Shown: piece by piece, positions 1 to 14,831 of the stretch
How positions within the stretch are numbered: the first letter of the stretch is position 1
Layout: each line of letters starts with the position of its first letter
Assembly: GCF_036346105.1 (NCBI RefSeq)
Contig: NZ_CP107812.1
Coordinates: 124,001 to 188,000, forward strand
DNA: 64,000 bases
Source of the DNA: Streptomyces sp. NBC_00539
GTDB taxonomy: Bacteria > Actinomycetota > Actinomycetes > Streptomycetales > Streptomycetaceae
Reading direction: 5' to 3'
Position numbers and translations under genes: made by a program
Notes under the pieces: generated by a model
Told to the model about the DNA's origin: nothing
What the model saw: the letters and a program-made list of their open reading frames with translations, nothing else
Database searches by the model: none

Positions 1-830
1 GTGGATTCCGAGATGCCGTCGCTGGTCAGGATGTTGCGGGCGTTCAGCGACTGGCGGCGCTCGCGGGGCAGTGCGTAGAAGTAGTCGGCGTGGCTGGGCA
101 TGTAGTAGTCGTTGGTGAACGGCGAGTCGTCGATCGGGAAGTAGTTCTGCCGGCGGGAGATCCAGGAGACCCGGCGGGGCAGTTGCCGGCCGGAGCGGGA
201 GATCAGGTCGAGGAAGGCCTCGGCGCCGGACTGGCCCCCGCCGATGACGACGACGCGTTTGCCGCCGAGGTCGTGGGAGGCGTTCAGGTAGTCGGCGACG
301 TGGAACTGGGTGGGACCGAGCCGGCCGGCGCCCTGCGGCGGGACCCAGGGGCGGCTGCCGACGCCGACCACGACGTTGTCGGCGGTGACGGTGCGGCGGT
401 CGGTGTGGACGGTGTAGGTGCCGCGCCGGTCGTCGAAGCCGACTTCCCGGACGTCCTCGCCGAAGGTGATGTTCTCGTTGCGGCGGCTGGCCCACGCCAG
501 GTAGTTGCGGAATTCCAGCCGGGGCACGTCGTCGAACTGGGCGTTGAGGAAGTGGTAGACCCGGCCCTTCTCGTGGAGGTAGGCGAGGAAGGAGAAGGGG
601 CTGGCGGGGTCGGCGAGGCTCACCAGGTCCTTGAACTGGGAGACCTGGAGGGTGGTTCCGGGTATCTGCTGGCCGTCGTGCCAGCTGAAGGATTCCTTGC
701 GGTCGAGGAAGAGATTGGGCATGTCCGGCCTGCAGTGCAGCAGTGACGCCAGACTGAGGTTGGCCGGGCCCACGCCCACTCCCACGCAGCGGAAGTGCGT
801 GGCACCGGGCGGGAAGCTCTCGTGCGCCAT
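1..830 (-). CDS. Lysine/ornithine N-monooxygenase, 3' end off the window
   Basis: Flavin-dependent N-hydroxylase of the IucD/SidA/PvdA family, which hydroxylates the side-chain amine of L-lysine or L-ornithine using NADPH, FAD and O2. The first 276 residues are visible. The FAD motif GVGVGPANLS is at residues 17-26 and the NADPH motif GGGQSG at 197-202. The family block FPIDDSPFTND follows at 231-241. The reading frame runs through the left edge, so the C-terminal part is missing. The ATG at 830 is preceded by GAGAGG. The gene is the last visible member of the minus-strand operon, 93 bp after the MFS gene. Two saccharopine-type dehydrogenases in the same operon favour lysine as substrate, but that is inference; ornithine cannot be excluded. 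Confidence 0.88.
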   Translation of the reverse strand, partial: MAHESFPPGATHFRCVGVGVGPANLSLASLLHCRPDMPNLFLDRKESFSWHDGQQIPGTTLQVSQFKDLVSLADPASPFSFLAYLHEKGRVYHFLNAQFDDVPRLEFRNYLAWASRRNENITFGEDVREVGFDDRRGTYTVHTDRRTVTADNVVVGVGSRPWVPPQGAGRLGPTQFHVADYLNASHDLGGKRVVVIGGGQSGAEAFLDLISRSGRQLPRRVSWISRRQNYFPIDDSPFTNDYYMPSHADYFYALPRERRQSLNARNILTSDGISES

Positions 831-923
831 GGTCGGAACCTCTCGTTCGAAAGCGTGCGGAAGCGCTGGGAGGCTTCGGAAAGCCTCGGGAAGCGCTGGG
901 AAGCCTTGGGAAAACGGAAACGG

Positions 924-2219
924 TCAGGCGGTCCGGGTCCGGCGGTCGTGTACGGCGATGAGGCCGCAGGCGGTGGCGAGCAGGGAGCAGGCGCCGACCA
1001 GTGGCCACACGAGGGAGCCGAACTGGAGGAACAGCCAGGTGCCGGCCATCGGCCCGAGCGCGGAGCCCAGGCCGAACATGAACTGGAAGCTGCCGATGTA
1101 GCGCGAGCGCAGGGGCTCGGGTCCCGCGCTCGCCGGGTAGGCGAAGACGGCGGGGCCGCCGAGGATCTCGCCCAGCGACCAGACGAGCGTGCCGATGACG
1201 ACGGCGGCCGGGCCGATGGGCAGTCCGTAGCAGGCGACTCCGGCGCCGACGAGGGCGAAGCCGAGACCGACGGTGATCTTGAGCGGCCAGCGCTGGGAGA
1301 CCTTGGTGACCAGCAGCTCGAAGGCGATGACGATGAGGCCGTTGAGCGCGACGGCGAAGGTGTACCAGAAGAGCGCCATGCCGGCGTCCTTCATGTACAG
1401 CGGGAGGGTGGAGAGGTACTGGGTGTAGACGGCGGCGTGGCAGAAGGCGGCGGTCAGGTAGAGCAGGTAGCGGCGGTCGCGCAGGACGGCCGCGTAGCCG
1501 CCGCGGGCGCCGGTGGGGACGGGAGCGGCCGCGGGGTGCCGGGCGGCCTTGGCGGGGAGGGTGGCACGGGCGACGAGGGCGTAGGCGAGCGCGATGACGG
1601 CCTCGCCCCAGAAGAGGAGGGTGTACGAGTGCCCGCCCGCGTTGTAGAGCGCGTAGCCCAGCAGCGGGGCGGCGGTCGCGCCGACGTTGAGGCCGAAGCG
1701 GTACATCGCGAAGATCATGATCTGCCGGTCGCCGTCGGTCTGGTCGGCCAGCAAGGTGGCGGAGGCCGGCCGGAACAGCTGGGCGCCCATGCTGACCAGG
1801 GCGATCGCGCCGAGCAGCAGGGTGAAGTCGGGCAGGTAGAGCAGGGCGGCGGTCAGCACGGCCGTGCTGCTCATGGACACGACGGTGGCGTGACGGATGC
1901 CGAGCCGGTCGGCGAGGGTGCCGCCGACGAGGGAGCCGGCGACGGCGCCCGCCCCGTAGACGCCGAGGGCGATGACGGTGCGGGCCTCGGAGTGGCCGGC
2001 GTCGGTGAGGAAGAGGACGAGGAAGAGCTGCAGGAAACCGCTGAGACGGTTGACGAGCACCCCGGCCAGTACGGTTTTGACGGCGGGCGTGGACTCCTTG
2101 AAGGTGTCCCATACGGCGGCGCGTCCGGCGCTCGTCGCGGCGCCCGGCCGGGTCTGCGGTTCGGCCACCGCGTCGGCCGCCGGGTCAGCCGTTGCTGCTG
2201 GTCTGATGTCAGTGCTCAC
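924..2219 (-). CDS. MFS transporter, probable product exporter
   Basis: A 431-residue major facilitator superfamily permease with about twelve hydrophobic segments and the usual charged loop after the second helix (GGTLADRLGIRHA, about residues 98-110). An N-terminal cytoplasmic stretch of some 35 residues rich in Ala and Pro precedes the first helix. The start at 2219 overlaps the end of the ATP-grasp gene by 11 bp, so the two are probably translationally coupled. Its place among biosynthetic enzymes suggests export of the operon's product or self-protection. The substrate cannot be read from the sequence. Confidence 0.88.
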   Translation of the reverse strand: MSTDIRPAATADPAADAVAEPQTRPGAATSAGRAAVWDTFKESTPAVKTVLAGVLVNRLSGFLQLFLVLFLTDAGHSEARTVIALGVYGAGAVAGSLVGGTLADRLGIRHATVVSMSSTAVLTAALLYLPDFTLLLGAIALVSMGAQLFRPASATLLADQTDGDRQIMIFAMYRFGLNVGATAAPLLGYALYNAGGHSYTLLFWGEAVIALAYALVARATLPAKAARHPAAAPVPTGARGGYAAVLRDRRYLLYLTAAFCHAAVYTQYLSTLPLYMKDAGMALFWYTFAVALNGLIVIAFELLVTKVSQRWPLKITVGLGFALVGAGVACYGLPIGPAAVVIGTLVWSLGEILGGPAVFAYPASAGPEPLRSRYIGSFQFMFGLGSALGPMAGTWLFLQFGSLVWPLVGACSLLATACGLIAVHDRRTRTA

Positions 2220-3540
2220 CGTCGGCCTCCGGGTCGGTGGTGACCGTGACGGCGCCGCGGACGCGCCGCTCCAGCTCGTCCAGTCCCTGCGGGGTGGGCG
2301 CGTCGATCAGGAAGGTCACCGCCCGGTCGTCGGAGCTGGCGAGCGGCCCCAGCCGCGCCCCGGCCTCCTTGAGGACGAACAGGGCGCGCAGCGTGGCCGG
2401 GTCGTCCTTCGCGCCGGGCGCGAGTTCGGGCCACATGCCGGACTCGCCGACCCACAGCGGCCGCACCCCCGGCCAGTCGAGGGTGACGCCGGCGAGCGGG
2501 CCCGTGCCGTGCTCCAGGTACACCTGGCGGGCGAAGCGGGTCGGGGCCGGGTAGGAGGCCGGTTCACCGAGCGCGATCCGGATGATCTCCGGTTCCATCG
2601 GCTGCCCGGTGGCGAGGTGGTAGAGGGCGAGCAGACCGTCGCCGGGGGTGCGGGCGGCGACCTCCATCAGGTACGGGCGGCCGTCGTCGCCGGTGCGCCA
2701 CTCGGCGTGGGCGATGCCGTCGCGGAAGCCCAGCGCTTCGAGCATCCGGCGGTTGGCGTCGAGCAGGGCCGCGTCGGCCTCCGCACGGGCATTGGGGACG
2801 GAGTGGGCGAGTTCCACGAAGGTCTGCGCCCCGGACTCGGTGGTCTCCTTGCGGGTCACCGAGGTGAAGACGGGCCGGCCGTGCTGGACCAGGGACTCCA
2901 CGGAGTACTCCTGGCCGGTGACCTTCTGCTCGATCAGTACCGTCTCGTGGTCCGGGTAGGACGTCAGCAGCTCGCGCAGGGCCGCCTCGTCGCCGACCGC
3001 CACGACCCCGGAACTGGAGTGGCGGGTGGCCGGTTTGACGACGACCGGGTACCCGAGGGCGGTCAGGTCGGCGTCCTCGCGGCCGCCGGGCGGCACCACC
3101 AGGGAGGCCGGGCTGTACTCCTCCAGGTACCAGCGCTGGAGGTACTTGCTGCGGCAGACCCGGGTGGCGCGCAGTCCGGGGCCCGGCAGGCCCAGCGCGT
3201 CGCACAGCAGCCCGGTCTGCTCGACGAGGGTCTCGCCGACCGCGTAGGCGCCGCGCACGGTGTAGCGGCCGCGCCAGTGGCGTGCCCGGGCGACGAACCC
3301 GGGGGTGTACGAGCCCTCCTGGTCCAGGGAGCCGTCGACGTAGGCGATGTCGTCGATGAGGTGGGCCGGGTGCTCGGGGTCCTTGCGGGCCGTCTCGGCG
3401 GCGTCCCGGTGGCGCTCGTCCGTGACGAGCAGGATCCGGAGGTTGCGGGCGGCGAGTTCCTCCAGGTAGCGGGGGTTGCGGCAGACGACCCGGAAGGCGC
3501 CGGTGAGGACGAAGGCTTCGGGCGGGCTGGCGTGGGTCAT
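2209..3540 (-). CDS. ATP-grasp ligase
   Basis: A 443-residue ATP-grasp enzyme. Such enzymes activate a carboxylate as an acyl phosphate and join it to an amine or other nucleophile. Visible landmarks are the ATP-binding lysine strand YPVVVKPATRHSSSGVVAV in the middle of the protein, the acidic segment EQKVTGQEYSVE, and the metal-binding strand YLMEVAARTPGDG. The overall layout resembles L-amino-acid ligases (BacD-like) more than purine enzymes. The ATG at 3540 overlaps the stop of the upstream gene as ATGA. In this operon it is the best candidate for amide bond formation onto a lysine-derived unit, since no NRPS module is present. Substrates are unknown. Confidence 0.85.
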   Translation of the reverse strand: MTHASPPEAFVLTGAFRVVCRNPRYLEELAARNLRILLVTDERHRDAAETARKDPEHPAHLIDDIAYVDGSLDQEGSYTPGFVARARHWRGRYTVRGAYAVGETLVEQTGLLCDALGLPGPGLRATRVCRSKYLQRWYLEEYSPASLVVPPGGREDADLTALGYPVVVKPATRHSSSGVVAVGDEAALRELLTSYPDHETVLIEQKVTGQEYSVESLVQHGRPVFTSVTRKETTESGAQTFVELAHSVPNARAEADAALLDANRRMLEALGFRDGIAHAEWRTGDDGRPYLMEVAARTPGDGLLALYHLATGQPMEPEIIRIALGEPASYPAPTRFARQVYLEHGTGPLAGVTLDWPGVRPLWVGESGMWPELAPGAKDDPATLRALFVLKEAGARLGPLASSDDRAVTFLIDAPTPQGLDELERRVRGAVTVTTDPEADGEH

Positions 3541-4763
3541 GCCGTGGCTCCTGACGGGTTGCTGGAGGGGTACGCGTCGGCGGCCGGGGCGGGGCTCTCC
3601 TCGTACGTTCCGGCCAGGCCCCGGGCGGCGAGGAAGGAGAGCCAGCGGGCGGTCTCGCCGGGCGTTTCGGCGGCCCGGGCCAGACCGGCCGGCAGGGCGC
3701 CGGCCAGGATGCGGGTCACTCCGTAGGCGACGGGCAGGGAGACGCAGCGGGCCATCGCGGACTCGGCCGCGTCGCCGGTGACGTCGAGGAGGTGGGAGCC
3801 GCGCCAGTGGGCGCCGTCGGCGGTGCGCAGTTCCAGGGCGACGGAGAGGACGACGCGGTCGCGGTCATCGGCGGTGGTGGGGTGGCGGGCGGCGAGTTCG
3901 GCGGCCAGGGCGCGTACGGCGGCCAGGTCCCCGCCGGCGACGGTTTCGAAGACCTCCTTCCAGGCGGTGCGCCAGCCCGCGTTGCGCAGGGTGCCGCGGA
4001 CGAAGGTGTCGAGCTTCCAGTGGGCGGGGATGCCGTACTGGGTGACGAAGGGGAGGCTGTCGCGGTTGGGGTAGACCTCGAAGTCCTCCCCTGCGAGGGT
4101 CCGGGTGCGGGTGGCCTCCCAGGGGCGGGGGACGGTCACCTCGGCGCCGGCCTCGATGTGCCGGGCCGGGGAGCCGAGGGCGGCGAGCACCCCGTACGGG
4201 GCCCAGCTGAAGCGGTAGCGGAAGGCGTTGGGGACCGCCGGGACACCGCCGCAGTAGGAGGTGAACCGGGCGGTCGCGGGTATCTCGCCGAGCGCCTCGC
4301 GGGCCCGGGCGACCAGGTCGTGGGCCATCAGGTGGTCGATGCCGGGGTCGAGTCCGGCCTCGGTGAGGACGACCGTACGGGCCTCCTCGCCGGCTTCGGC
4401 GGCGAGTTCGGCGAGCTCCGGCGAGACGTAGCTGGTGCAGGCGAAGTGGGCGCCGCGTTCGATGGCCAGCCGCAGCAGCGGGGCGTGCTCGGCGGCCGGG
4501 AGCATGGAGACGATGACGTCGCCCGGGCCCGCCTCGGCCGCGAGGGCGGCCGGGGCGGAGGGGGCGAGGGCGCGGACTTCGGCGCGGCCGGTGAGGCCGA
4601 GCGCGGCCAGTCGGGCGGCGGCGCGCTCGGCGGTGCGGTCCCACAGGACGACGCGGGGGGCGCTCTCGCAGACGAGGGCGAGTCCGGAGCGTCCGGTGGA
4701 CAGGCCGGTGCCTATCCAGTGGACGGTGCCGGAGGCGGGTATGGCGGGCCGGTCAGCGGACAT
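3537..4763 (-). CDS. Saccharopine dehydrogenase, Lys9/glutamate-forming type
   Basis: A 408-residue NAD(P)-dependent dehydrogenase of the Lys9/LYS9-like family, which interconverts saccharopine with alpha-aminoadipate semialdehyde plus glutamate. The Rossmann start is VHWIGTGLSTGRSGLAL. The family blocks LTEAGLDPGIDHLMAHDL and SYCGGVPAVPNAFRYRFSW are both clear and match the classical enzyme closely. The ATG at 4763 has AGGAG upstream and overlaps the Lys1-type gene by 11 bp. With that neighbour it would turn lysine plus 2-oxoglutarate into aminoadipate semialdehyde plus glutamate. An alternative is that the pair acts on an N-substituted lysine made in the pathway. Confidence 0.87.
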   Translation of the reverse strand: MSADRPAIPASGTVHWIGTGLSTGRSGLALVCESAPRVVLWDRTAERAAARLAALGLTGRAEVRALAPSAPAALAAEAGPGDVIVSMLPAAEHAPLLRLAIERGAHFACTSYVSPELAELAAEAGEEARTVVLTEAGLDPGIDHLMAHDLVARAREALGEIPATARFTSYCGGVPAVPNAFRYRFSWAPYGVLAALGSPARHIEAGAEVTVPRPWEATRTRTLAGEDFEVYPNRDSLPFVTQYGIPAHWKLDTFVRGTLRNAGWRTAWKEVFETVAGGDLAAVRALAAELAARHPTTADDRDRVVLSVALELRTADGAHWRGSHLLDVTGDAAESAMARCVSLPVAYGVTRILAGALPAGLARAAETPGETARWLSFLAARGLAGTYEESPAPAADAYPSSNPSGATA

Positions 4764-5814
4764 GGTGGGTCTCCTGGGCCTGGACGGCCGTCTCGAAGGT
4801 GTGCAGGGCGCGGGGCCAGACGCCGTCCCACTCGGTCAGGCGCAGCAGGTGCGGGGCGAGTTCGGCGGAGAAGGCGGTGCTGGCCTCGACGGGGAGGAGG
4901 GAGGGCAGGTTGTCGATGGCGATCAGGTCGAAGCGGGGGGTGTCGGGGCGCAGGGTCCGGACGGGCTCGTCCCAGGTGGTGGTCTCGTCGTAGACGGGCA
5001 GCACGTTGTGTGCGGAGGTGACGTCGCAGGTGACGTCGGAGACGAGGGTCAGGCGCCGGGTGGTGTCGTCGAGGTCGGTCTTGGTGAGGAACGGCGGGAC
5101 CGGGTCGGTGGTGAGGACGGTGTTGACGAGGAGGTCGTGACCGAGGAGCGCGGCGCGGTCGAGCCGGCGGGTCTCGGCGAGGTCCCAGCGGGTGGGGGTG
5201 AGGCCGGCCGTGGTCAGGGCGTCGCAGGCGCCCCGGCCGCTGCGGCCGAGGGCGCCGATGACCAGGGCGGTGCTCGCGTCCTCGGCCTCGGTGGCTTCGA
5301 GGAGGGCGTCCAGGGTGGCCCGGTCCGTGGGGCGCAGGGGGGTGGTCAGCTGCCCGCGCCGGTGCAGGACGGCGAGGGCCGCCCCGACGTACCCGGCCCA
5401 GTAGCCGAAGGCGGCGACGCGGCGGCCGCGGTCGTCGGTGAGGTACTCCATGTCGAGGAGGGCGCCGCCGCCGGCGGTGAAGCGGGAGAGCAGTGCGCCC
5501 GCGCCGGCCTGGCCCTTGTAGGCGTGGCCGAAGTAGACGTGCCGGTGGCGCAGCGGGGTGCGGTCGTCGGGGAGTTCCTTGAGCCCGAGGACGTAGGCGT
5601 CGTCGGGGGCCAGTTCGTGCCAGGAGTCGGTGGGGGCGCTCTCACAGCCGGCGGCGATGTAGTCGGCGAGGGGGAACACGCGCTGGTCGCAGGCTTCGAC
5701 GGTGATGCGCAGGCCTTGGGCGACGAGGTGGGCGGCGTCGTCCGGGGTGAGCGGCGCGCGGCGTTCGGTGGGGCGGGACTCGTGCCGCATCCAGAGGTGA
5801 ATACTGTCCGACAT
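4753..5814 (-). CDS. Saccharopine dehydrogenase, Lys1/lysine-forming type
   Basis: A 353-residue protein of the alanine dehydrogenase/Lys1 family, which makes saccharopine reversibly from lysine and 2-oxoglutarate with NAD(H). The N-terminal block IHLWMRHESRPTERRAPLTP has the substrate-binding layout of the family. Downstream are VFPLADYIAAGCE and a nucleotide-binding segment ALVIGALGRSGRGA. The ATG at 5814 is chosen because it fits the family start and has AGGAC upstream; an in-frame ATG at 5841 is possible. The gene is followed directly by the Lys9-type gene with an 11-bp overlap. Having both halves of the saccharopine route side by side in a biosynthetic operon is unusual for an actinomycete. 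Confidence 0.86.
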   Translation of the reverse strand: MSDSIHLWMRHESRPTERRAPLTPDDAAHLVAQGLRITVEACDQRVFPLADYIAAGCESAPTDSWHELAPDDAYVLGLKELPDDRTPLRHRHVYFGHAYKGQAGAGALLSRFTAGGGALLDMEYLTDDRGRRVAAFGYWAGYVGAALAVLHRRGQLTTPLRPTDRATLDALLEATEAEDASTALVIGALGRSGRGACDALTTAGLTPTRWDLAETRRLDRAALLGHDLLVNTVLTTDPVPPFLTKTDLDDTTRRLTLVSDVTCDVTSAHNVLPVYDETTTWDEPVRTLRPDTPRFDLIAIDNLPSLLPVEASTAFSAELAPHLLRLTEWDGVWPRALHTFETAVQAQETHHVR

Positions 5815-5927: not shown

Positions 5928-7073
5928 TCAGATCAGCGGGATGCGGGCGTTCGCCAGGGGGCGGTAGGCCGGGTTCGAGGGGAAGGTGGACGGGGCAAAG
6001 CCTGCCGCGAGGAGTTCGGTGACGACGGCCGTGGCGAGGGCCACGGCGAGCGTTTCGCCCGGGCAGCGGTGGGCCGATGCGCCGAAGGTGAAGACCGCCG
6101 GATTCACCCGGCCGGGGTGCAGCGCGTGGGGGTCCGGGTTGACGGCGGGGTCCCGGTTGGCGGCGGCGAGGACGACCAGCACCTGCTGGCCCGGCTCGAC
6201 CTTGGAGTCGGCGTGGACGAAGGGCTCGGCGGCGAAGCGGCGGGTGTTCTGGATCGGGGCGTCGTAGCGGACCACTTCGCGCACCAGCGCCTCGATGCCG
6301 CCGTCGCCCGCGGGGGCCGCCGGGGCCGCTCCCCGGGCGAGGGCGACCAGGGTGTTGCCGATCAGGCCCGCGGTGGCGTCGTAGGTCTGTGACAGGAACC
6401 CGACCGCGTTGGAGAGCAGCGGCGCCGAGTGCGGCCATGACGCCCGGTCGGCGGCGCGGACCAGCTCGGCGAGGAGCCCGTCGCCCCGCGCCGTCAGACC
6501 CGGTGCCAGCAGCTCGCGCAGCCGGGCCGCCGCGGTCGCCGCGGCCTGCTGCTGCGCAGGGGTCGCGGTGGCGGGGATGCACTGGACGAAGTCGCCGATG
6601 GCCCGGGCCGCCTCCTGCCCGGCGCCGTCCGTCAGGCCGCTGAGCGCGGCGACGACGCGGGCGGGGACGGAGAACATCAGTTCCTCGTGGGGGACGTCGC
6701 CGCCCGCCGCGAGAACCTCCCGGGTGAACTCGGCGGCCAGGCGGGCCGCGTGGCCGGTGTCGGCACGGGCCAGGGCGTCGGCCACCACCGTCTTGAGCCG
6801 GGCCTGCGTGGGGCCGTCGGTCATGCGCACCAGGTCGCCGAAGACCTCGCCCGCCGCCGTCCCGCCGATCCCGGCCGGGACCGGCTCGGCCGGCGGCCGC
6901 ACCCGCAGCGCGTCGCTGCCCAGCACCGCGCGCACGGCGGCCGCGTCGGCGGCGACCCAGACCCCGAGCGCCTCGTCGTAGGCGAAGGGGCGCTCGGCCA
7001 CCAGGCGCGCGTAGAAGGGGTAGGGGTCCGGGAGGCGGACCGCCTCGATCGGTGTGGTGGTGGTGCTGGTCAC
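5928..7073 (-). CDS. Cytochrome P450
   Basis: A 381-residue bacterial class I P450, expected to need ferredoxin and ferredoxin reductase, neither of which is in the window. The haem-binding motif FTFGASAHRCPGE is at about 328-340 with Cys337 as thiolate ligand, and the K-helix ExxR is E266-R269. The I-helix does not show the usual AGxDT/ET; the corresponding stretch reads LSQTYDATAGL (227-237). GTG start at 7073 with AAGGAG upstream; the acyl-CoA dehydrogenase ends 33 bp before it. As part of the left operon it probably oxidises that pathway's intermediate, but a role on the macrolide next door cannot be excluded. Confidence 0.9.
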   Translation of the reverse strand: MTSTTTTPIEAVRLPDPYPFYARLVAERPFAYDEALGVWVAADAAAVRAVLGSDALRVRPPAEPVPAGIGGTAAGEVFGDLVRMTDGPTQARLKTVVADALARADTGHAARLAAEFTREVLAAGGDVPHEELMFSVPARVVAALSGLTDGAGQEAARAIGDFVQCIPATATPAQQQAAATAAARLRELLAPGLTARGDGLLAELVRAADRASWPHSAPLLSNAVGFLSQTYDATAGLIGNTLVALARGAAPAAPAGDGGIEALVREVVRYDAPIQNTRRFAAEPFVHADSKVEPGQQVLVVLAAANRDPAVNPDPHALHPGRVNPAVFTFGASAHRCPGETLAVALATAVVTELLAAGFAPSTFPSNPAYRPLANARIPLI

Positions 7074-7106: not shown

Positions 7107-8300
7107 TCAGGCTGCCGCTCGGGCCGCGCGGCGCATGTCGAGCGAGCCCGCGATGGCCATCCGCAGCACCTCCGAGGTGCCCTCGTAGATGCGCAGCGAC
7201 CGGATCTGCCGGTACAGCCGCTCGGTGACGCCGCCCTGGACGATGCCGGCCGCGCCGAGCAGCTGCACGGCGGAGTCCACCACGCCCTGCGCGGTCTCGG
7301 TGGCGTGGACCTTGGCGATGTTGGAGTGCCGGGCGAAGCGGCGGCTGCCCCGGTCCGTCTCCCATGCGGCCCGCGCCACCAGCAGGGACGCCGCGGCCAG
7401 TTGCACCTCCATGTCGGCCAGGGAGGCCTTGACGAGCTGGAGGTCGAACAGGGTCTGCCCGTAGGCCTCCCGCTGCCGGGTGTGCGCGAGGGCCGTGTCG
7501 AAGGCGCGGCGGGCGAAGCCGAGGGCGGCCGCGCCGACGGTGGTGCGGAAGCGTTCCAGCAGGTCCACGGCGATCACGAACCCCCGTCCGGGCCGGCCCA
7601 GTACCGCGTCGGCGGGCACCCGGCAGTCCTCGAAAGACAGGTGGGCGAAGGAGCGCGGGGCGATCGCGTCGATCCGTTCGGCCCGCAGCCCCGGGGTGGC
7701 GGCCGGGACGAGGAAGGCGGTGAGCCCGAGCGCTCCGGGTCCCGGGCCGGTGCGGGCGATGACGACGAACAGGTCGGCGATGGTGCCGTTGGCGATCCAG
7801 GCCTTGCGCCCGTTCAGCACGTACGAGCCGTCCGCCGCGTCCCGCACTGCCTCCAGGCCCACGGAGGCGACGTCCGAACCGGCTTCCCGCTCGGAGACGG
7901 CGAAGGCGCCGATGGTCGTCCCGGCGGCCATCCCCGGCAGGTGGCGACGCTGTTGTGCCTCGCTGCCGAAGCGCAGCAGGGGCGTCGCGGACAGGGCCTG
8001 GATGGAGTACGCGAAGTCGGCCAGGTCCTCGGCGTAGGCGAGGGCCTCGCGGCGCAGGCACAGGGCGCGCAGGTCCTCGGCCGCGCCCGCGGCGGGGTCG
8101 AGCGCGGCCAGCCAGCCCGCGTCGCCGAGGGTGCGCACCAGCCTGCGGCCGGCGGTGTCGGGGTCCAGGGCGCCCACCTCCTCCCACAGGACCCGGTTGC
8201 TGTCGCACCAGGTCCCCGCGGTCCCGGCGAGCCGGCGGTGGCCGTCGTCGTAGAAGGGGAGGTCGAGGACCTCGGGGTCGAAACTCGTCGTCAGTTCCAC
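7107..8300 (-). CDS. Acyl-CoA dehydrogenase family flavoprotein
   Basis: A 397-residue acyl-CoA dehydrogenase. The flavin-side motif [15 protein letters not shown] lies mid-protein, and the C-terminal domain carries [11 protein letters not shown], whose glutamate is the usual catalytic base. Family members introduce alpha,beta double bonds into acyl-CoA or acyl-carrier-protein thioesters with electron-transfer flavoprotein as acceptor. The start is the GTG at 8300 because GAGGAG sits directly upstream and homology begins there; the frame is open further upstream but only as an artefact of high GC. The previous gene stops 11 bp away. It may desaturate an acyl unit passed to or from the ketosynthase III-like protein. 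Confidence 0.9.
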
Positions 8301-8311
8301 GGCGGGGCTCC

Positions 8312-10582
8312 TCAGATGACCAGGTCGGCGGCGGCCGGGGCGGTGGTGACGGGACCGGCCTGCGCCGAGCGCACCCGCTTGACCAGGGCGTGTTCGACGA
8401 AGTAGGCGAAGGAGGCATAGCCGCGCCAGATGCGGCGCCATTCGCGCTGGACGGCTTCCTCGCCGGAGGCCCGGCGTACGTCGTCCAGGTAGGCGACGAC
8501 GATCTCCGCCGACTGGCGGGCGTGGCCCGCCGAGAAGTTGTCGATCGACAGGTGCGCTTCCTCGTAGGAGATGTCGAAGCCGTGGCTGCGCAGCTTCTGG
8601 ATCTCGTGCAGGCGCATCGCGCCGAGGCCGAACATCTCGATGCCCAGGTTGTAGCCGAGGATCTCGTTGTAGAGGGTGTCGGGGAAGAGCGACAGGCAGA
8701 CCTGGTGGACGGAGAAGCCGTACAGGTGGTCGGGGAGGTCCCCCTGGTCCAGGAAGGCGTCCTGGCGGATGTGCGGCAGGTCCATGTCCATGCTGGCGAG
8801 GACCTTGTGGATGATCGTGATGTGGTTCTTCGCCATGTCGCCGCGGCCCATCTCGTCGGCGTAGATGGAGAAGAGCATGTCGTCGCTGCGCCGGGCCCGG
8901 CGGCCGAGGTTGGCGATGCGGTGGGCCCAGGTGCCGTCGATGAGGCTGCCGAGGGCGTACGTCGACTGCTCGAAGACGACCTGGTCGCGGTCCGGGATCT
9001 CGGTGAGCGGCTCGTACGGGTCCACGAGCTTGTCCCAGTAGATCCGCTCGACGCGTTCCAGCAGGGCTTCGGGCGTGTAGTCGAAGTACTCGGCGTCGGT
9101 CAGCAGGCCGCCGGCGCCGTGGGTGAAGAGCAGTTCGGCTTCGGTGAGGCCGGCCTCGGCGCGGGCCCGGGCCAGGGGCAGGACGTGGGGGTAGCGCTCG
9201 AAATTGACGATCCGGTGGAAGAAGGTGCGCTCGTCCGGGGCCGGGCCGGGCTCGCGCGGTACCAGGTCCGCGGGGCGGGCCGCGGCGAGGCGGACGGTCC
9301 AGGCGCGGGCGGCGGCGTCGCCGGCGGTGGCGGGGCCGCTGGGCGGCCCGGCGGGCTCCCCGGCAGCGATGGAACGGGTCCAGGCGGTGAAGACGGCTGC
9401 TTCGCGCTCGTCGAAGATGCCGAACATGGGGCCGCCGAACTTGATGGACTTGAGGAAGCGGCAGGGGCCGCCGTCGCGGGCGGGCCGGACCTGGCGGGAG
9501 GTGCGGAACTCGGCGACGAAGGCGGCCGCGTCGAGGTGTTCGTCGTCCAGCCAGTCGGTGAGCTTGCGGGTGCCCAGGCGCACGGCGCGGTGCTGGCGGC
9601 CGGCGTGCGGGGCGTGCCGGGCGACGATCGCGGCGACCTGGTCGTCCAGGGACAGGCCCTCCTGCCAGCGGGCCAGTTCGGTCAGGGCGGCGGTGTGTTC
9701 GCGCTCCAGGCGCACCATGAGGCGTACGGCCGCCAGTGCGCGGCGGCGGTCCTCGGGCCCGGTCGGGGACTGCGCGGTGAAGGCGAGGTACTCGGCCAGC
9801 AGGGGCCGTACGTCGCTCTCCGCGAGCACCGGCTCGCCGCCGAGCAGGAGTTCGTCGACGCCGAGGGCGTGGGCGGCGTAGTGGACGCCGACCACCTCGG
9901 GGAGGAAGGCGGCGGGCAGGCGGGACAGGGCCACGCGGAAGGCGGCGTGCAGGGCGGTGACCGGGCGGGCCCCGGCGTCGCGCAGGAAGCCTGCGGCCTC
10001 CACCTCGGGGAGGTACACGCCCTGCCCGGCCAGGGCGCGGCGCCGGCGGGCGGGCTGGCCGGCCTCGGCGGTGCCCTCGCCTTGGAGCAGCCAGTGCTGG
10101 CCGAAGAGGCGGCCGACGATTTCGGCGGGCTGGGTGGCGGCCTGGGAGACGGTGTCCAGCCAGCAGGCGCCGGTGAGGGCGAGGGGGGCGCGCTGGCGCA
10201 GGACGGCGGCCCGGATCCCGGGGTCGTCGTGCTCGCGCAGGGGGACGAGGGCGGCGGCGAGTTCGGCGCGGGCGGCCAGTACGTGGACGGCGACGGCGTC
10301 GGCGTCGGCGTCGGCGTCACCGGGCCCGCCTTCGCCCTCCTCCGTCGCCAGGAACGCGGTGAGGACCCGGCGGGCGGCGATGAGAGCGCTCTCGCTCTCC
10401 TGGTCGGCGAGCAGGCGCGCGAAGAGCTCCGCGGGCGGGGCGGCGGTGATCCGTTCGGCCTCGGCGAGGGCGGCGGGACTCGCCTCGACGGGCCCGGCGG
10501 GCAGCGAGGTCGTGAGGTCGGGCAGCGGGAACGCCGGGGCGGGGCGGGTGCGGGCGCTGTCGTAGGAGGGCGCGGTGGTCAT
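8312..10582 (-). CDS. Long haem-oxygenase-like diiron (iron redox) protein
   Basis: A 756-residue protein whose C-terminal 200 residues look like a haem-oxygenase-fold diiron oxidase (the fold of SznF, UndA, BesC and BelK/HrmI). Candidate metal ligands are E577 and H587 in YADEMGRGDMAKNHITIIH, E649 in LGIEMFG, and H677, D681 and H687 in HLSIDNFSAGH. Single-domain relatives are about 230-300 residues, so most of the N-terminal 550 residues are extra; I do not recognise a second domain there. An acidic run of Asp-Ala repeats is at 88-97. ATG at 10582 follows GGGGGAG, two bases after the previous stop. Relatives N-oxygenate or fragment lysine-type amines or fatty acids, which suits this operon, but the reaction is inferred. 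Confidence 0.75.
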   Translation of the reverse strand: MTTAPSYDSARTRPAPAFPLPDLTTSLPAGPVEASPAALAEAERITAAPPAELFARLLADQESESALIAARRVLTAFLATEEGEGGPGDADADADAVAVHVLAARAELAAALVPLREHDDPGIRAAVLRQRAPLALTGACWLDTVSQAATQPAEIVGRLFGQHWLLQGEGTAEAGQPARRRRALAGQGVYLPEVEAAGFLRDAGARPVTALHAAFRVALSRLPAAFLPEVVGVHYAAHALGVDELLLGGEPVLAESDVRPLLAEYLAFTAQSPTGPEDRRRALAAVRLMVRLEREHTAALTELARWQEGLSLDDQVAAIVARHAPHAGRQHRAVRLGTRKLTDWLDDEHLDAAAFVAEFRTSRQVRPARDGGPCRFLKSIKFGGPMFGIFDEREAAVFTAWTRSIAAGEPAGPPSGPATAGDAAARAWTVRLAAARPADLVPREPGPAPDERTFFHRIVNFERYPHVLPLARARAEAGLTEAELLFTHGAGGLLTDAEYFDYTPEALLERVERIYWDKLVDPYEPLTEIPDRDQVVFEQSTYALGSLIDGTWAHRIANLGRRARRSDDMLFSIYADEMGRGDMAKNHITIIHKVLASMDMDLPHIRQDAFLDQGDLPDHLYGFSVHQVCLSLFPDTLYNEILGYNLGIEMFGLGAMRLHEIQKLRSHGFDISYEEAHLSIDNFSAGHARQSAEIVVAYLDDVRRASGEEAVQREWRRIWRGYASFAYFVEHALVKRVRSAQAGPVTTAPAAADLVI

Positions 10583-10584
10583 CT

Positions 10585-11577
10585 TCAGTTCTCCCCCCGG
10601 TCCGGGGTGGCGGGCGCGGACTTGCGCAGCAGGACGGCGACGCGGGAGCCGGGGACGCTGGAGGCCAGCAGGTAGTGGCCGCCGGGGCGCAGCGCTCCGG
10701 CGGCGGCGCGGTCCACGAGGTTGATCAGCGGGTCGGCGGCGAAGCAGTGGCCGAAGCGGGTGATGTTGTCGAGGTGGAGCTGCTGCCGGGTGAAGCCGGC
10801 CTGGCGTTCCTTGAGGGCGATCAGCGGCTTGAAGAGGTTGGGGTGCAGCAGGCCGTCGATCTCGTCGAGCTTCATCCCGGCGGCGTCGAGGATGCGCCGG
10901 TTGACGGTGCGGGCCAGCTCGGAGCTGATCTCGTGGGACCAGTCGAGGGAGGCGGGGTCCTGGGCGGTGGCGCCGGCGATGATCTCGTAGGCGTCGGCGC
11001 CGAGGGGTTCGGCGGAGATGAGGCAGGCGGCGGAACCGTCGCTGAACAGGGCGAAGTTCTCCATGCGGACGGACTCGTCGGTGACCCGGTCGGTGGTGAC
11101 GACCAGGACCCGGCGGTGGGTTCCGGCGGCGACGAGGGCGTGGGCGGTGCGGATGCCCGTCAGGAGGTTGGTGCAGCGGTTCAGGGTGAGGCCGGTGACG
11201 GCGGCGTCGACCAGGCCGATGCCGCTCATCACCTTCTCCACGAAGCCGCCGTGGGTGCGCGGGCCGCCGGGGAAGCGGGTGGAGCACAGGATCAGGCAGT
11301 CGATGCCGGCCGGGTCGGCGCCCGCGGCCCCTACGGTCGCGCGGGCGCTCTCGACGGCGAGGGCCTCCAGGCTCTTGGCGGTCCTGCGGATGCTGCCCCA
11401 GCCCCACAGTTCGGCCCGTGGCGCCATCTTGAACTGGCGGGCCCGTTCGGTCAGGTTGCCGATGCTCGTGTGGTCGGCCACCTGTTCGCCGAGCACGTAG
11501 CGCGGCGCGGACAGGTGGACCGCGGGCAGGTGCGCGGGCGGGAGGACCGCGGGTATGGCTGCGGAAGGAAGGCTCAC
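10585..11577 (-). CDS. Ketosynthase III-like acyltransferase
   Basis: A 330-residue thiolase-superfamily protein related to FabH/KAS III. The nucleophile is Cys135 in LTLNRCTNLL and the histidine is H245 in LLHPNLFK. The position of the third catalytic residue, normally Asn in a GN(T/S)SAA block, reads FGHCFAADP, so it appears to be His277. KAS III relatives with changed triads often transfer acyl groups to O, N or S rather than condensing with malonyl-ACP. The GTG start at 11577 overlaps the preceding stop (GTGA). No acyl carrier protein gene is visible in this locus, so the acyl donor is unknown. Confidence 0.82.
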   Translation of the reverse strand: MSLPSAAIPAVLPPAHLPAVHLSAPRYVLGEQVADHTSIGNLTERARQFKMAPRAELWGWGSIRRTAKSLEALAVESARATVGAAGADPAGIDCLILCSTRFPGGPRTHGGFVEKVMSGIGLVDAAVTGLTLNRCTNLLTGIRTAHALVAAGTHRRVLVVTTDRVTDESVRMENFALFSDGSAACLISAEPLGADAYEIIAGATAQDPASLDWSHEISSELARTVNRRILDAAGMKLDEIDGLLHPNLFKPLIALKERQAGFTRQQLHLDNITRFGHCFAADPLINLVDRAAAGALRPGGHYLLASSVPGSRVAVLLRKSAPATPDRGEN

Positions 11578-12503
11578 GGTGCCGGATCGCTCTCTCGGTC
11601 GTCGGACGGGGCGGTCGGGGCGGGGGCGGCCAGCAGGGCGTTGGCCTCGGCGTACGGGAGTGCGTCGGCGCCGAAGCCGAAGGTGCCGTGCTCGCTGATC
11701 TCGCGGGCGGCGCGGGTCAGGGCGCCGAGCGCGGCGCGGGACAGGGCGGAGCCGGTGCTGATCCGGCGTACGCCGAGGGCCGCGAGGTCGGCGACGGACA
11801 GCGGCAGCGCCCCGCCCATCAGGACGTTGACGGGGCGGGAGACGGAGGAGCAGACGGCGCGGATGGCGGCGGCGTCGGGCAGGGCGGGGGCGTAGAGCAC
11901 GTCGGCGCCGGCGGCCTCGTAGGCCTGGAGGCGGCGGATGGTGTCTTCGAGGTCGGGCCGGCCCTGGAAGAAGTTCTCGGCGCGGGCGGTGACGGTGAAG
12001 GGGAAGTCGAGCCGCTTCGCCGCTTCGACGGCCGCTTCGACGCGCTCCACCGCTTCGCCGAGGGGGCGTACGGGGTCCTCGTCCCGGCCGGTGGAGTCCT
12101 CGATGGAGCCGCCGACCAGGCCGGCGGCGGCGGCCAGGGCGATGGTCTCGGCGATGTCCTCGGGGCGCTCGCCGAAACCGCTCTCCAGGTCGGCGGTGAC
12201 GGGCAGGCCCGTGGCGTCGACGATCGCGGCGGCGTTGGCGAGGAGTTCGGCGCGGGTGACCTGGTTGGCCCCGTCGGGGCGGCCGAGGCTGTGGGCGAGT
12301 CCGGCGCCGGTGGTGGCGAGGGCGGCGAAGCCGAAGGAGGCGAGGATGCGGGCGGTTCCGGCGTCCCAGGGGTTGGGGACGACGAAGGGGCCGGGTCCGG
12401 CGTGCAGGTCGCGGAAGGCGACGGCGCGGCCGTACTGGGACCGGGCGTGCGGGGCGGTGGGCTGCTGGGCGGCGGGCTGCTGGGCGGCGGTGCTGTGGTT
12501 CAC
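11574..12503 (-). CDS. Isocitrate lyase/PEP mutase family protein
   Basis: A 309-residue TIM-barrel enzyme of the isocitrate lyase/phosphoenolpyruvate mutase superfamily. The metal and substrate motif reads VTADLESGFG, followed by GGSIEDSTG and a strand FTVTARAENF. True isocitrate lyases carry a KKCGH loop, which is absent; phosphonate genes are also absent, so a C-C lyase or hydrolase acting on a 2-oxo or 2-hydroxy acid is more likely than PEP mutase. The N-terminus has a short QQPAAQQPTA repeat that is probably disordered. GTG start at 12503 with GAGGA upstream. It sits between the thioesterase and the KAS III-like gene, which suggests supply or cleavage of a small acyl unit. Confidence 0.83.
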   Translation of the reverse strand: MNHSTAAQQPAAQQPTAPHARSQYGRAVAFRDLHAGPGPFVVPNPWDAGTARILASFGFAALATTGAGLAHSLGRPDGANQVTRAELLANAAAIVDATGLPVTADLESGFGERPEDIAETIALAAAAGLVGGSIEDSTGRDEDPVRPLGEAVERVEAAVEAAKRLDFPFTVTARAENFFQGRPDLEDTIRRLQAYEAAGADVLYAPALPDAAAIRAVCSSVSRPVNVLMGGALPLSVADLAALGVRRISTGSALSRAALGALTRAAREISEHGTFGFGADALPYAEANALLAAPAPTAPSDDRESDPAP

Positions 12504-12536: not shown

Positions 12537-13361
12537 TCAGATCAGCTCAACGTACTCATCGCGGGCGGGCGCCACGGCCTCGTGGCGGGCGGCGCGGGCC
12601 AGCGGGCGCAGTACGTCGGTGACGGTGTGGGGCCGGTCCTCGAAGTAGAAGTGGCCCCCGTCGGCCCAGTGGCGGGCCGGCTCCCCCGGGCATTCGCGGG
12701 CCCAGGGCGCGAGGGAGGCGGTGGTGACGTGCGGGTCGTCGATGCCGTTGAGCAGGGTCAGCGGCACGCGCAGCGGCGCGGCGGGGCGGTACTCGTACGC
12801 GGCGACCATCGTGAAGTCGGCCTTGAGGTGGGGCAGGAGGAGTTCCTGCACGGCTTCGTCCTGGAGCACCTCGGGCGGCAGCCCTCCGAAGAAGCCGACG
12901 GCCTCGGTGAACCGGCGGCCCTCCAGCCGTGCCGCCTCGACCACGCGGGGGGTGGGCAGCAGGGAGGGGGCGGAGCAGCCGGAGGCGACGAGGGCGGCGA
13001 GGCCGGGCACTCCGTCGAGGCGGCGGGCGACCTCGAAGGCGAGGGCCGCGCCGAAGCTGTGGCCGAAGAGGACGAAGGGCCGGCCGGGGGCCGTGTCGAG
13101 GGCGATGGCGTGGGCGGCGCCGTCGGCGAGTTCCGCGACGGTGGCGGGGGCGGGCTCGCGGAAGCGGTGGCCCCTGCCCGGCGGGCACACGGCGAGGACG
13201 CGGGCGTCGTCGCCCATGCCGTCCTGCCAGTCCAGGAAGGTGCGGGGGTTGCCGCCGGCGTGCGGGAAGCAGTAGACGCGGGTGCGGTCGTCGGTACCGG
13301 TATCGCTGGGGTCGGCGCCGGGGGCGGTCTCGGAGGTCAGGAACCAGGGGGACGCAGCCAC
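12537..13361 (-). CDS. Type II thioesterase
   Basis: A 274-residue alpha/beta hydrolase of the type II thioesterase family, which removes stalled or wrong acyl groups from carrier proteins. The oxyanion block CFPHAGGNPRTF is at 31-42, the nucleophile motif GHSFGA has Ser102, and the catalytic histidine lies in ADGGHFYF near the C-terminus. GTG start at 13361 with AAGGAA about 14 bases upstream, rather weak. It lies in the left operon, but the nearest megasynthases are in the macrolide locus, so it could edit either pathway. Confidence 0.9.
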   Translation of the reverse strand: MAASPWFLTSETAPGADPSDTGTDDRTRVYCFPHAGGNPRTFLDWQDGMGDDARVLAVCPPGRGHRFREPAPATVAELADGAAHAIALDTAPGRPFVLFGHSFGAALAFEVARRLDGVPGLAALVASGCSAPSLLPTPRVVEAARLEGRRFTEAVGFFGGLPPEVLQDEAVQELLLPHLKADFTMVAAYEYRPAAPLRVPLTLLNGIDDPHVTTASLAPWARECPGEPARHWADGGHFYFEDRPHTVTDVLRPLARAARHEAVAPARDEYVELI

Positions 13362-13435: not shown

Positions 13436-13732
13436 TCAGTTCCAGCCAACGTCGGCCGGGTTGAGCGGCTGGGGGGCGGGGGTGGTACCGGGCTGCGGGT
13501 TGTTCCAGCCGACGTCACCGGCGCCGTCCGCGAGGACGTGGGGGTCCGTGTGGTTCCAGCCGACATCGCCGAGGCGCAGGTGGGTGCCGGATCCGTCGGA
13601 CAGGGCGCCCTGGGCGATGCCGGTGACCGCGGTACCCAGCGCGAAGGCGAGTCCGGCGGCGGCCAGAACCACTCGTCCGCGGATTCCGGAAACGCGGACG
13701 TCCCCACGAGCAACCCTCTGGTTCTTCGTCAT
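13436..13732 (-). CDS. Small secreted-type protein with three DVGWN repeats
   Basis: A 98-residue protein I do not recognise. The N-terminus has basic residues (R13, R18, R20) followed by a hydrophobic stretch at about 21-40 and an Ala/Gly-rich end, as in a Sec signal peptide or a single membrane anchor. The remaining 55 residues carry the pentapeptide DVGWN three times, at 56-60, 73-77 and 94-98, the last being the exact C-terminus. The linkers are Pro-, Gly- and Thr-rich. ATG at 13732 follows GGGGA. It is the first gene of the left operon, next to the promoter region shared with the LuxR-type regulator. A signal or binding peptide, or a precursor of a modified peptide, are both possible; no function is claimed. 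Confidence 0.72.
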   Translation of the reverse strand: MTKNQRVARGDVRVSGIRGRVVLAAAGLAFALGTAVTGIAQGALSDGSGTHLRLGDVGWNHTDPHVLADGAGDVGWNNPQPGTTPAPQPLNPADVGWN

Positions 13733-13973: not shown

Positions 13974-14831
13974 GTGGACGTGGTGAAATACGTCGAATCA
14001 GGACAGAACGGAGCATCGGAGGAGCCTCGTGCGCCCGCGGGGGAGGAACCGCAGGCATTCTTGCGAGAACTCGCAACGCACCTCGGCCTGCTGGCGGAGG
14101 AAGCCGCACAGCAGGCCACGCGCGCGGAGGCACTGCCGGAGATCGAGGCCGGCCCGGAGGAGCAGGTCGTGGGCCCCGGAGTGCGCTACCTGCACGGTCT
14201 GGGCAGCATCTCCACCGCGATCAACGAGGCGCTCGGCGCGGTGCGCAGGGAAATCCTGACCGCCCAGCCGGACGGGGCCCGGCCGAGCGCGGTATTGAAG
14301 GAAGCACTGGAATCCGTACGCCGGCACATCGCGGCCGGCATATCCATGCGGACGCTGTACCAGCACACCACGCGTTTTGACGAGGCGACGAAGGACTACG
14401 TGCGCACGGTCACCGAATACGGGGCCCAAGTGCGGACCCTGGAGGAATTCTTCGACCGGCTCATCATCGTGGACGACGTCGCCTTCATCTCGGCGAACGA
14501 GGAACGCACGACCGCGATATCCATCACCGAACCCACCATCATCCGTTTCCTGCGCGACACTTTCGACAAGGCCTGGGACCGGGCCAAGCCCTTTCCGTTC
14601 GTTCCGCTGCACGCGGCGAAGGCGGCCGACGAGGTGGTCCCGGCCATCCGGGAGTCCATCAGCAGACTGCTCGTGGAAGGTTATTCGGACAAGGCGATCG
14701 CCCGCCGGATCGGCATCAGCGAACGCTCCCTCCAGGCACACATCGCGGCCATCAAGCAGGAACTGGGAGCGCTCAACCGATTACAGCTCGGCTATCTGCT
14801 GGGGCGCAACGAGACCACTTACGTTCTGTAA
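13974..14831 (+). CDS. LuxR-type helix-turn-helix transcriptional regulator
   Basis: A 285-residue regulator with a C-terminal LuxR-type helix-turn-helix at about 222-275, including EGYSDKAIARRIGISERSLQ. The N-terminal two thirds is helical and contains the segment VRTLEEFFDRLIIVDDVAF, typical of streptomycete LuxR proteins with a phospholipase D-like/TrmB-type sensory region rather than a REC domain or an ATPase. GTG start at 13974 preceded by AGGGGTGG. It is transcribed away from the minus-strand operon and is the likely pathway-specific regulator of the left locus. A hairpin lies 228 bp after its stop. Confidence 0.88.
   Translation: MDVVKYVESGQNGASEEPRAPAGEEPQAFLRELATHLGLLAEEAAQQATRAEALPEIEAGPEEQVVGPGVRYLHGLGSISTAINEALGAVRREILTAQPDGARPSAVLKEALESVRRHIAAGISMRTLYQHTTRFDEATKDYVRTVTEYGAQVRTLEEFFDRLIIVDDVAFISANEERTTAISITEPTIIRFLRDTFDKAWDRAKPFPFVPLHAAKAADEVVPAIRESISRLLVEGYSDKAIARRIGISERSLQAHIAAIKQELGALNRLQLGYLLGRNETTYVL

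Follow-up and report, generated by a model that had tools for sequence, protein, structure and literature searches.

We found that five genes at the left end of a 64,000-base stretch of Streptomyces sp. NBC_00539 belong to what is, judged from its sequence, very probably an azaserine biosynthetic gene cluster, orthologous to azs of S. fragilis (probability about 0.93), and that azaserine is its likely product. The stretch, called the window below, is positions 124,001 to 188,000 of contig C2 (G000:C2:124001-188000); C2 has 436,969 bases and the genome 7.5 Mb in two contigs. The five genes, at window 1–5814, encode two saccharopine dehydrogenases, an ATP-grasp protein, an exporter and an N-monooxygenase. 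They form one gene run and are a slice of a larger azs-type cluster of 21 genes, which extends from a phosphopantetheinyl transferase (PPTase) gene at window -11352..-10684 to a LuxR gene ending at window 14831. The author of an earlier note on this DNA was aware of no published pathway with this precise combination. That novelty is refuted, the gene set being already known from the azaserine pathway: the published azs account (PMC10445470) lists the exact set in the same order, and the triacsin cluster shares the dehydrogenase pair.

Identity of the cluster

The cluster is assigned to azaserine by orthology because it has gene-by-gene counterparts in both azaserine producers compared and shares stretches of the adenylation pocket region with them. 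In S. fragilis NBRC 12862 (loci L024, L150) counterparts were found for all 21 genes, with order and relative strand kept and with 44–76% identity over the best matching stretch; AzsA differs in carrying the pentapeptide DVGWN twice there and three times here. The S. fragilis gene table likewise gives an identical gene set and order, from azsR to azsU (PMC10445470). All 21 counterparts were also present in S. cirratus and on the S. lavendulae plasmid pSA3239 (NZ_CP024986.1, L013/L153), where an azaserine-type cluster is complete with its 21 genes. Glycomyces harbinensis (L067, L151), which also produces azaserine, shares 18 of the 21 genes, including both saccharopine enzymes, the ATP-grasp protein and the major facilitator superfamily (MFS) exporter. 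In the adenylation domain, FDLSVWDVFG, MMSGDR and SLGGPTETTIWN show no difference between the window's cluster, S. fragilis and G. harbinensis.

Some points weigh against the assignment. By orthology, azaserine is the likely product of this strain; of the four clusters compared gene by gene, that of G. harbinensis has no A, R or U (PPTase) gene in the stretches read and carries its thioesterase elsewhere. The product might instead be N-nitroglycine or another hydrazone-derived compound, as the S. noursei N-nitroglycine cluster is very similar and S. noursei also makes azaserine (PMC13274452). We consider this very unlikely. The S. noursei cluster (L042) also holds an N-monooxygenase, a flavin adenine dinucleotide (FAD) enzyme, a cupin/MetRS protein, a nonribosomal peptide synthetase (NRPS), a haem-oxygenase-like enzyme (HDO) and a P450, but neither the saccharopine pair (H, I) nor the ATP-grasp/MFS pair (J, K) was matched within the 22 kb examined; the shared genes are 52–70% identical to S. 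noursei L042 versus 61–76% to S. fragilis, and the adenylation domain reads SVY in S. noursei and SVW here. An extra oxidase, NngS, is a mark of the N-nitroglycine cluster; the 21 genes here include a single P450 and a single haem-oxygenase-like gene.

The 21 genes are listed below, those left of the window by C2 coordinates and the others by window coordinates; percentages are identities to S. fragilis unless stated.

C2 112648-113316: PPTase
C2 113342-114355: C45 peptidase-like protein
C2 114352-114963: GNAT protein
C2 114967-115245: carrier protein
C2 115238-116827: AMP ligase
C2 116824-120156: NRPS (AzsO homologue); condensation, AMP-binding and PP-binding domains
C2 120153-122417: cupin/MetRS/carrier protein (AzsN homologue); Cupin_2, tRNA-synt_1g, PP-binding
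C2 122414-123502: FAD oxidoreductase (AzsM homologue); 61%
1..830, stop at window -498, minus strand: L-lysine N6-monooxygenase (AzsL homologue); PF13434, E 7.6e-94; 71%, 60% to G. harbinensis
924..2219, minus strand: MFS exporter (AzsK homologue); MFS_1, E 4e-39; 68%
2209..3540, minus strand: ATP-grasp protein, L-amino-acid-ligase-like (AzsJ homologue); ATP-grasp_4, E 4.3e-17; 3vot, E 4.7e-14
3537..4763, minus strand: Lys9-type saccharopine dehydrogenase/reductase (AzsI homologue); Sacchrp_dh_C, E 1.8e-39; 70%
4753..5814, minus strand: Lys1-type saccharopine dehydrogenase (AzsH homologue); AlaDh_PNT_N, E 6.9e-21; 67%
5928..7073, minus strand: cytochrome P450 (AzsG homologue); Pfam p450, E 5e-8; 68%
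7107..8300, minus strand: acyl-CoA dehydrogenase-like enzyme (AzsF homologue); Pfam; 73%
8312..10582, minus strand: haem-oxygenase-like iron enzyme (AzsE homologue), with the ATG of MTTAPSYDS as its assumed start; Haem_oxygenas_2, E 1.3e-14; 68%, 50% to G. harbinensis
10585..11577, minus strand: KAS III-like acyltransferase (AzsD homologue); Pfam; 66%
11574..12503, minus strand: isocitrate lyase/phosphoenolpyruvate mutase family enzyme (AzsC homologue); PF13714, E 3.8e-78; 70%
12537..13361, minus strand: thioesterase (AzsB homologue); PF00975, E 2.9e-36; 61%
13436..13732, minus strand: AzsA, small exported-type protein with three DVGWN copies; 47% over 56% of its length
13974..14831, plus strand: AzsR, LuxR-type helix-turn-helix (HTH) regulator, divergent from AzsA; GerE, E 4.3e-7; 73% over 76% of its length

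The five genes at window 1–5814 lie on the minus strand at the places given in the earlier note, and their family matches are far beyond chance. Overlaps of 4 to 11 bases link four of them to a neighbouring gene, and a gap of 93 bases separates the MFS and monooxygenase genes. It was also suggested there that the genes make an N-oxidised or N–N bonded product, of which the N–N reading is supported, and that a cupin/MetRS-type hydrazine synthetase or an NRPS should be sought to the left; both were found. A hydroxamate siderophore locus, named there as a refuting case, was rejected: no siderophore gene occurs among the 21 cluster genes, those further left having been read by eye only, as translations. 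Lysine, putrescine and ornithine N-monooxygenases of solved structure all match the AzsL homologue, and lysine as its substrate is inferred from gene order, the sequence match alone being unable to decide against ornithine. Contig C2 itself may be a plasmid.

Proposed route to azaserine

The steps proposed here are those reported for homologues, transferred to this cluster by orthology. In the published work lysine is N-hydroxylated, the cupin/MetRS enzyme couples it to glycine, and a flavoenzyme cleaves the product into hydrazinoacetic acid and aminoadipate semialdehyde. The former is then succinylated, loaded onto a carrier, desuccinylated, dehydrogenated to a hydrazone, passed to the AzsN carrier domain and converted to a serine ester (PMC10445470, PMC13274452, PMC13061610/preprint PMC12154687, PMC8664883). 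The hydrazinoacetic acid genes azsL, azsM and azsN are present in our cluster, the carrier domain being fused to the cupin/MetRS protein. AzsL would N-hydroxylate lysine, AzsN would join N6-hydroxylysine and glycine, and AzsM would oxidise the C–N bond, freeing hydrazinoacetic acid and 2-aminoadipate 6-semialdehyde. The hydrazone cassette azsS, P, Q, T and F is also present (66–76% identity to S. fragilis) and would turn hydrazinoacetic acid into a carrier-bound hydrazone, AzsF being reported to convert the hydrazine to the hydrazone on the carrier (PMC10445470). The hydrazone would be transferred by AzsD onto the AzsN carrier domain, and both serine-ester genes are present, for the NRPS AzsO, which would esterify it to serine, and for the thioesterase AzsB, which would release the product.

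As the diazo-forming oxidase of azaserine the iron enzyme has been proposed (PMC13274452). Two candidates are present here, the P450 AzsG and the iron enzyme AzsE, one P450 and one haem-oxygenase-like gene being found among the 21 cluster genes; either may form the diazo group. In addition, we noticed five loci (L035, L036, L071, L074 and L090) with an azaserine-type NRPS and the iron enzyme, where matches to the P450 and the acyl-CoA dehydrogenase were absent in the DNA examined. If complete, these loci inform which oxidase forms the diazo group.

The saccharopine dehydrogenase pair

The two dehydrogenases probably recycle lysine, so that lysine would be a reusable nitrogen carrier and the hydrazine nitrogen would be paid by glutamate. 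The semialdehyde freed by AzsM would be condensed with glutamate to saccharopine by the Lys9-type AzsI, and the Lys1-type AzsH would split saccharopine into lysine and 2-oxoglutarate.

In sequence, AzsH and AzsI resemble ordinary saccharopine enzymes, with matches at E 2e-66 between the Lys1-type protein and yeast saccharopine dehydrogenase 3ugk and at E 4.8e-38 between the Lys9-type protein and saccharopine reductase 1e5l. The active-site comparison proposed in the earlier note was run: nine of the ten yeast Lys1 positions compared are identical (16, 18, 77, 78, 96, 99, 122, 131 and 135), and lysine 13 is replaced by arginine. K77 and H96 we take to be the catalytic lysine and histidine of yeast Lys1; the residues aligned with them are invariant in 17 hydrazine-cluster proteins. 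Similarly, the Lys9-type protein keeps the motifs GLDPGIDH, YCGG.PA, FSW and YPNRDS of the fungal and human enzymes, with both Pfam domains present.

The distribution of the pair was followed in AzsN-homologue loci, taken as the best 80 of 109 stretches encoding a relative and including S. fragilis L024 and G. harbinensis L067. Both dehydrogenase genes occurred together in 28 of these 80 loci and neither ever alone, and all 28 also carried the N-monooxygenase and the flavoenzyme AzsM. The flavoenzyme was found in 79 of the 80 loci, 51 of them without the pair. Because the FAD enzyme accompanies the pair in 28 of 28 loci, the pair is no stand-in for the flavoenzyme and probably turns the freed semialdehyde back into lysine. 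The earlier note had left two uses for these enzymes, the processing of an N-substituted lysine and the recycling of lysine carbon; the same co-occurrence speaks against the former, a task that in other hydrazine pathways falls to the FAD enzyme, and the latter fits best. A related idea is that a dehydrogenase, most likely the Lys9-type one, takes over from the flavoenzyme and itself oxidatively cleaves the hydrazine N6-(carboxymethylamino)lysine. On chemical grounds this has some appeal, since that compound is a close saccharopine analogue and Lys9 would break the same C-epsilon to N bond, but with an AzsM homologue adjacent and nearly always present, also where the pair is missing, we regard it as highly improbable.

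The published account prints another view, in which the saccharopine enzymes merely raise the supply of lysine precursor and the semialdehyde that AzsM frees is not fed back in a closed loop; in triacsin production the pair is dispensable (PMC10445470). We think this unlikely. Streptomyces makes its lysine via the diaminopimelate route, so that the saccharopine enzymes could yield lysine only from aminoadipate semialdehyde, the expected product of AzsM, and supply and recycling become one reaction.

Several observations weigh against lysine recycling. Disruption of tri23/tri24 is reported to have left triacsin production unaffected (PMC10445470), Tri23/Tri24 being listed as homologues of the two dehydrogenases. 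The printed table of the same account, through which alone triacsin was compared, shows common hydrazinoacetic acid genes and a cluster that differs from azs in product and assembly. The pair is also missing from 52 of the 80 AzsN loci; among the 68 for which 9 kb or more was available on each side, 43 lack it. Lys9- and Lys1-type genes occur, in turn, where there is no hydrazine synthetase: among 298 genomes of the family, a Lys9-type match was found in 45, a Lys1-type match in 51 and an AzsN match in only 16, so similar pairs must serve elsewhere too. Finally, a second Lys1-type gene lies on contig C1 of the same genome (L124 9827-10819, G000:C1:1497776-1498810; 64% identity); the surrounding 20 kb gave no Lys9-type match.

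Such pairs elsewhere in many family genomes could mean that these dehydrogenases serve ordinary lysine catabolism and came to lie in the cluster by chance, and eight of the 12 non-hydrazine pair regions indeed share another neighbourhood. We find this hardly credible: the H, I and ATP-grasp genes overlap by 4–11 bases, S. fragilis and G. harbinensis have H and I in the corresponding slot, and the hydrazine-cluster copies are strongly grouped in a tree. The tree held 56 Lys9-type proteins, of which 32 came from hydrazine clusters and the other 24 did not, after removal of matches below 330 residues and of near-duplicates, and required three label changes versus 18.4 when labels were shuffled. 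The 32 do not form one clade, and several long branches leave some placements unsure; in G210, a genome labelled non-hydrazine, the pair and an AzsN gene lie about 0.87 Mb apart. The pair was rejected as a specific marker of hydrazine clusters, pairs being found elsewhere in many family genomes.

The shared neighbourhood of the eight regions (L125, L127-L131, L137 and L141) looks from its sequence like GTP cyclohydrolase II, 6-pyruvoyl-tetrahydropterin synthase and a glycosyltransferase. Lone AzsH-like genes (77–78%) were seen at L135 10009-12168 and L136 9823-10866, one of them beside an AzsC-like gene (89%); these regions gave weak NRPS/AMP-ligase matches, and their genomes no AzsN match. 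A second hydrazine set was noticed in the NBC_00539 genome at L122 12127-17438 (G000:C1 about 367,100-372,500), with a cupin/MetRS protein (74%), an FAD enzyme (61%) and an N-monooxygenase (66%). Its Lys9-like gene is apparently degenerate, as it is matched piecewise, internal stretches are missing and the last piece lies in another frame.

The ATP-grasp protein and the MFS exporter

Homologues of AzsJ and AzsK were found together in 22 of the 80 AzsN loci and never apart. Twenty of these 22 loci also carry an azaserine-type NRPS, and the contigs of the other two (L079, L085) end at or near AzsN; counted from the other side, the pair is present in 20 of the 40 NRPS-bearing loci. The closest sequence relative of known structure is the L-amino acid ligase 3vot given in the list. 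A model of AzsJ was built from an alignment of the window protein with those of 19 of the 22 loci, where the frame could be read whole, and had a predicted local distance difference test score (pLDDT) of 88. In a Foldseek search, 3vot, RizA (4wd3) and BacD/YwfE chains made up six of the best seven chains, with query template-modelling scores (TMq) of 0.67–0.71; a purine-type ATP-grasp enzyme stood at rank 3, and 582 matches were obtained at E <=0.001. As the ATP-grasp fold is so widely shared, the ligase fold leaves the substrate of AzsJ unfixed.

From sequence and model, AzsJ and AzsK look like an accessory amino-acid-ligase-like enzyme and an exporter. The bacilysin system offers a parallel: BacD is an L-amino acid ligase, its chains are 14–15% identical in sequence to AzsJ, and the azsJ gene adjoins an MFS exporter gene, BacE being the exporter of the bacilysin BacD/BacE pair. 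By this analogy we tentatively guess that AzsJ might act on azaserine as BacD acts on anticapsin, coupling it to another amino acid ahead of export. We know of no azaserine dipeptide. In the published azs account AzsJ is speculated to be uninvolved in azaserine biosynthesis (PMC10445470).

AzsA and AzsR

The most novel part of the cluster is AzsA/AzsR, which lies outside window 1–5814. AzsA has 98 residues and a hydrophobic, signal-peptide-like stretch; its tail carries DVGWN three times. It matched no family of Pfam or NCBIfam, and Tandem Repeats Finder reported nothing in it at the DNA level. A protein search for relatives gave hits in 25 of the 298 genomes at E <=0.01, mostly weak and chance-like, and below 1e-4 only the window's own protein and one other. 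The DNA pattern for two DVGWN copies was found in two of the 298 genomes, both times at azaserine clusters. AzsR has a PLD/TrmB-like N-terminal domain before the HTH; its model (pLDDT 74.8) matched TrmBL2 and PLD-family nucleases in Foldseek at TMq ~0.4. In the published account AzsA is termed hypothetical and is speculated to play no part, and forced azsR expression was part of heterologous azaserine production (PMC10445470).

AzsR was searched for in 38 genomes, from 40 named loci, a close AzsR being one with at least 60% identity. At all 16 close AzsR loci a divergent small frame was present in which exact DVGWN occurs once to four times, and outside these copies the AzsA-like proteins vary widely. 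The other 22 genomes, including G. harbinensis, have no close AzsR, and therefore the AzsA/AzsR pair is not needed for azaserine everywhere.

We also looked at LuxR paralogues. Of 64 distinct places, 12 showed an upstream, divergent frame that carries D/N-x-G-W-x once or more, and 10 one that carries it twice or more, while no such frame was seen at the remaining 52; in the downstream control the numbers were 8 and 1. None of the 16 AzsR places had a downstream frame of this kind. In 18 precursors with at least two copies, several of them from close relatives and thus not independent, 60 of the 63 copies match the pentapeptide that is most frequent in the precursor concerned, and nine such most frequent pentapeptides were counted. 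In 2.0 Mb of other loci, 28 signal-like short frames had one copy of the wider motif and none had two. The strict signal-peptide filter skipped the DVGWN precursors at L182, L183, L184 and L193, which an unfiltered scan recovers. The following are exported-type small proteins beside AzsR-like LuxR genes.

L204 670-1116: DTGWT, seven copies (LuxR genes of the set 35–41% identical to AzsR)
L209 2512-2907: DSGWN, six copies
L194 2531-2860: DSGWT, five copies
L212 2512-2925: DTGWT, six copies
L216 2559-2852: DIGWx, four copies
L200 2512-2808: DSGWG, three copies
L198 2587-2895: DPGWT/DPSWT, four copies

It is possible, as a guess, that the Streptomyces azs cluster is switched on by an unrecognised secreted signal. 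AzsA would be exported and trimmed to DVGWN peptides acting through the divergent PLD-fold/LuxR regulator AzsR, which would belong to a larger LuxR/D-x-G-W-x family, some paralogues each having a partner precursor with a D-x-G-W-x pentapeptide of its own in repeated copies. A cytosolic regulator would require re-uptake of the peptide; AzsA may instead have a cell-surface or structural role. A narrow search of open-licence literature found no paper on D-x-G-W-x peptides, and for DVGWN, judged by title, none either.

Significance

The two dehydrogenases suggest that lysine is used again and again as a carrier from which the hydrazine draws nitrogen. The published account set aside both AzsA and the ligase/exporter pair, which co-occurs in 22 of the 22 loci that have either gene. 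If the D-x-G-W-x precursors are signals, short synthetic peptides added to cultures could wake silent Streptomyces clusters.

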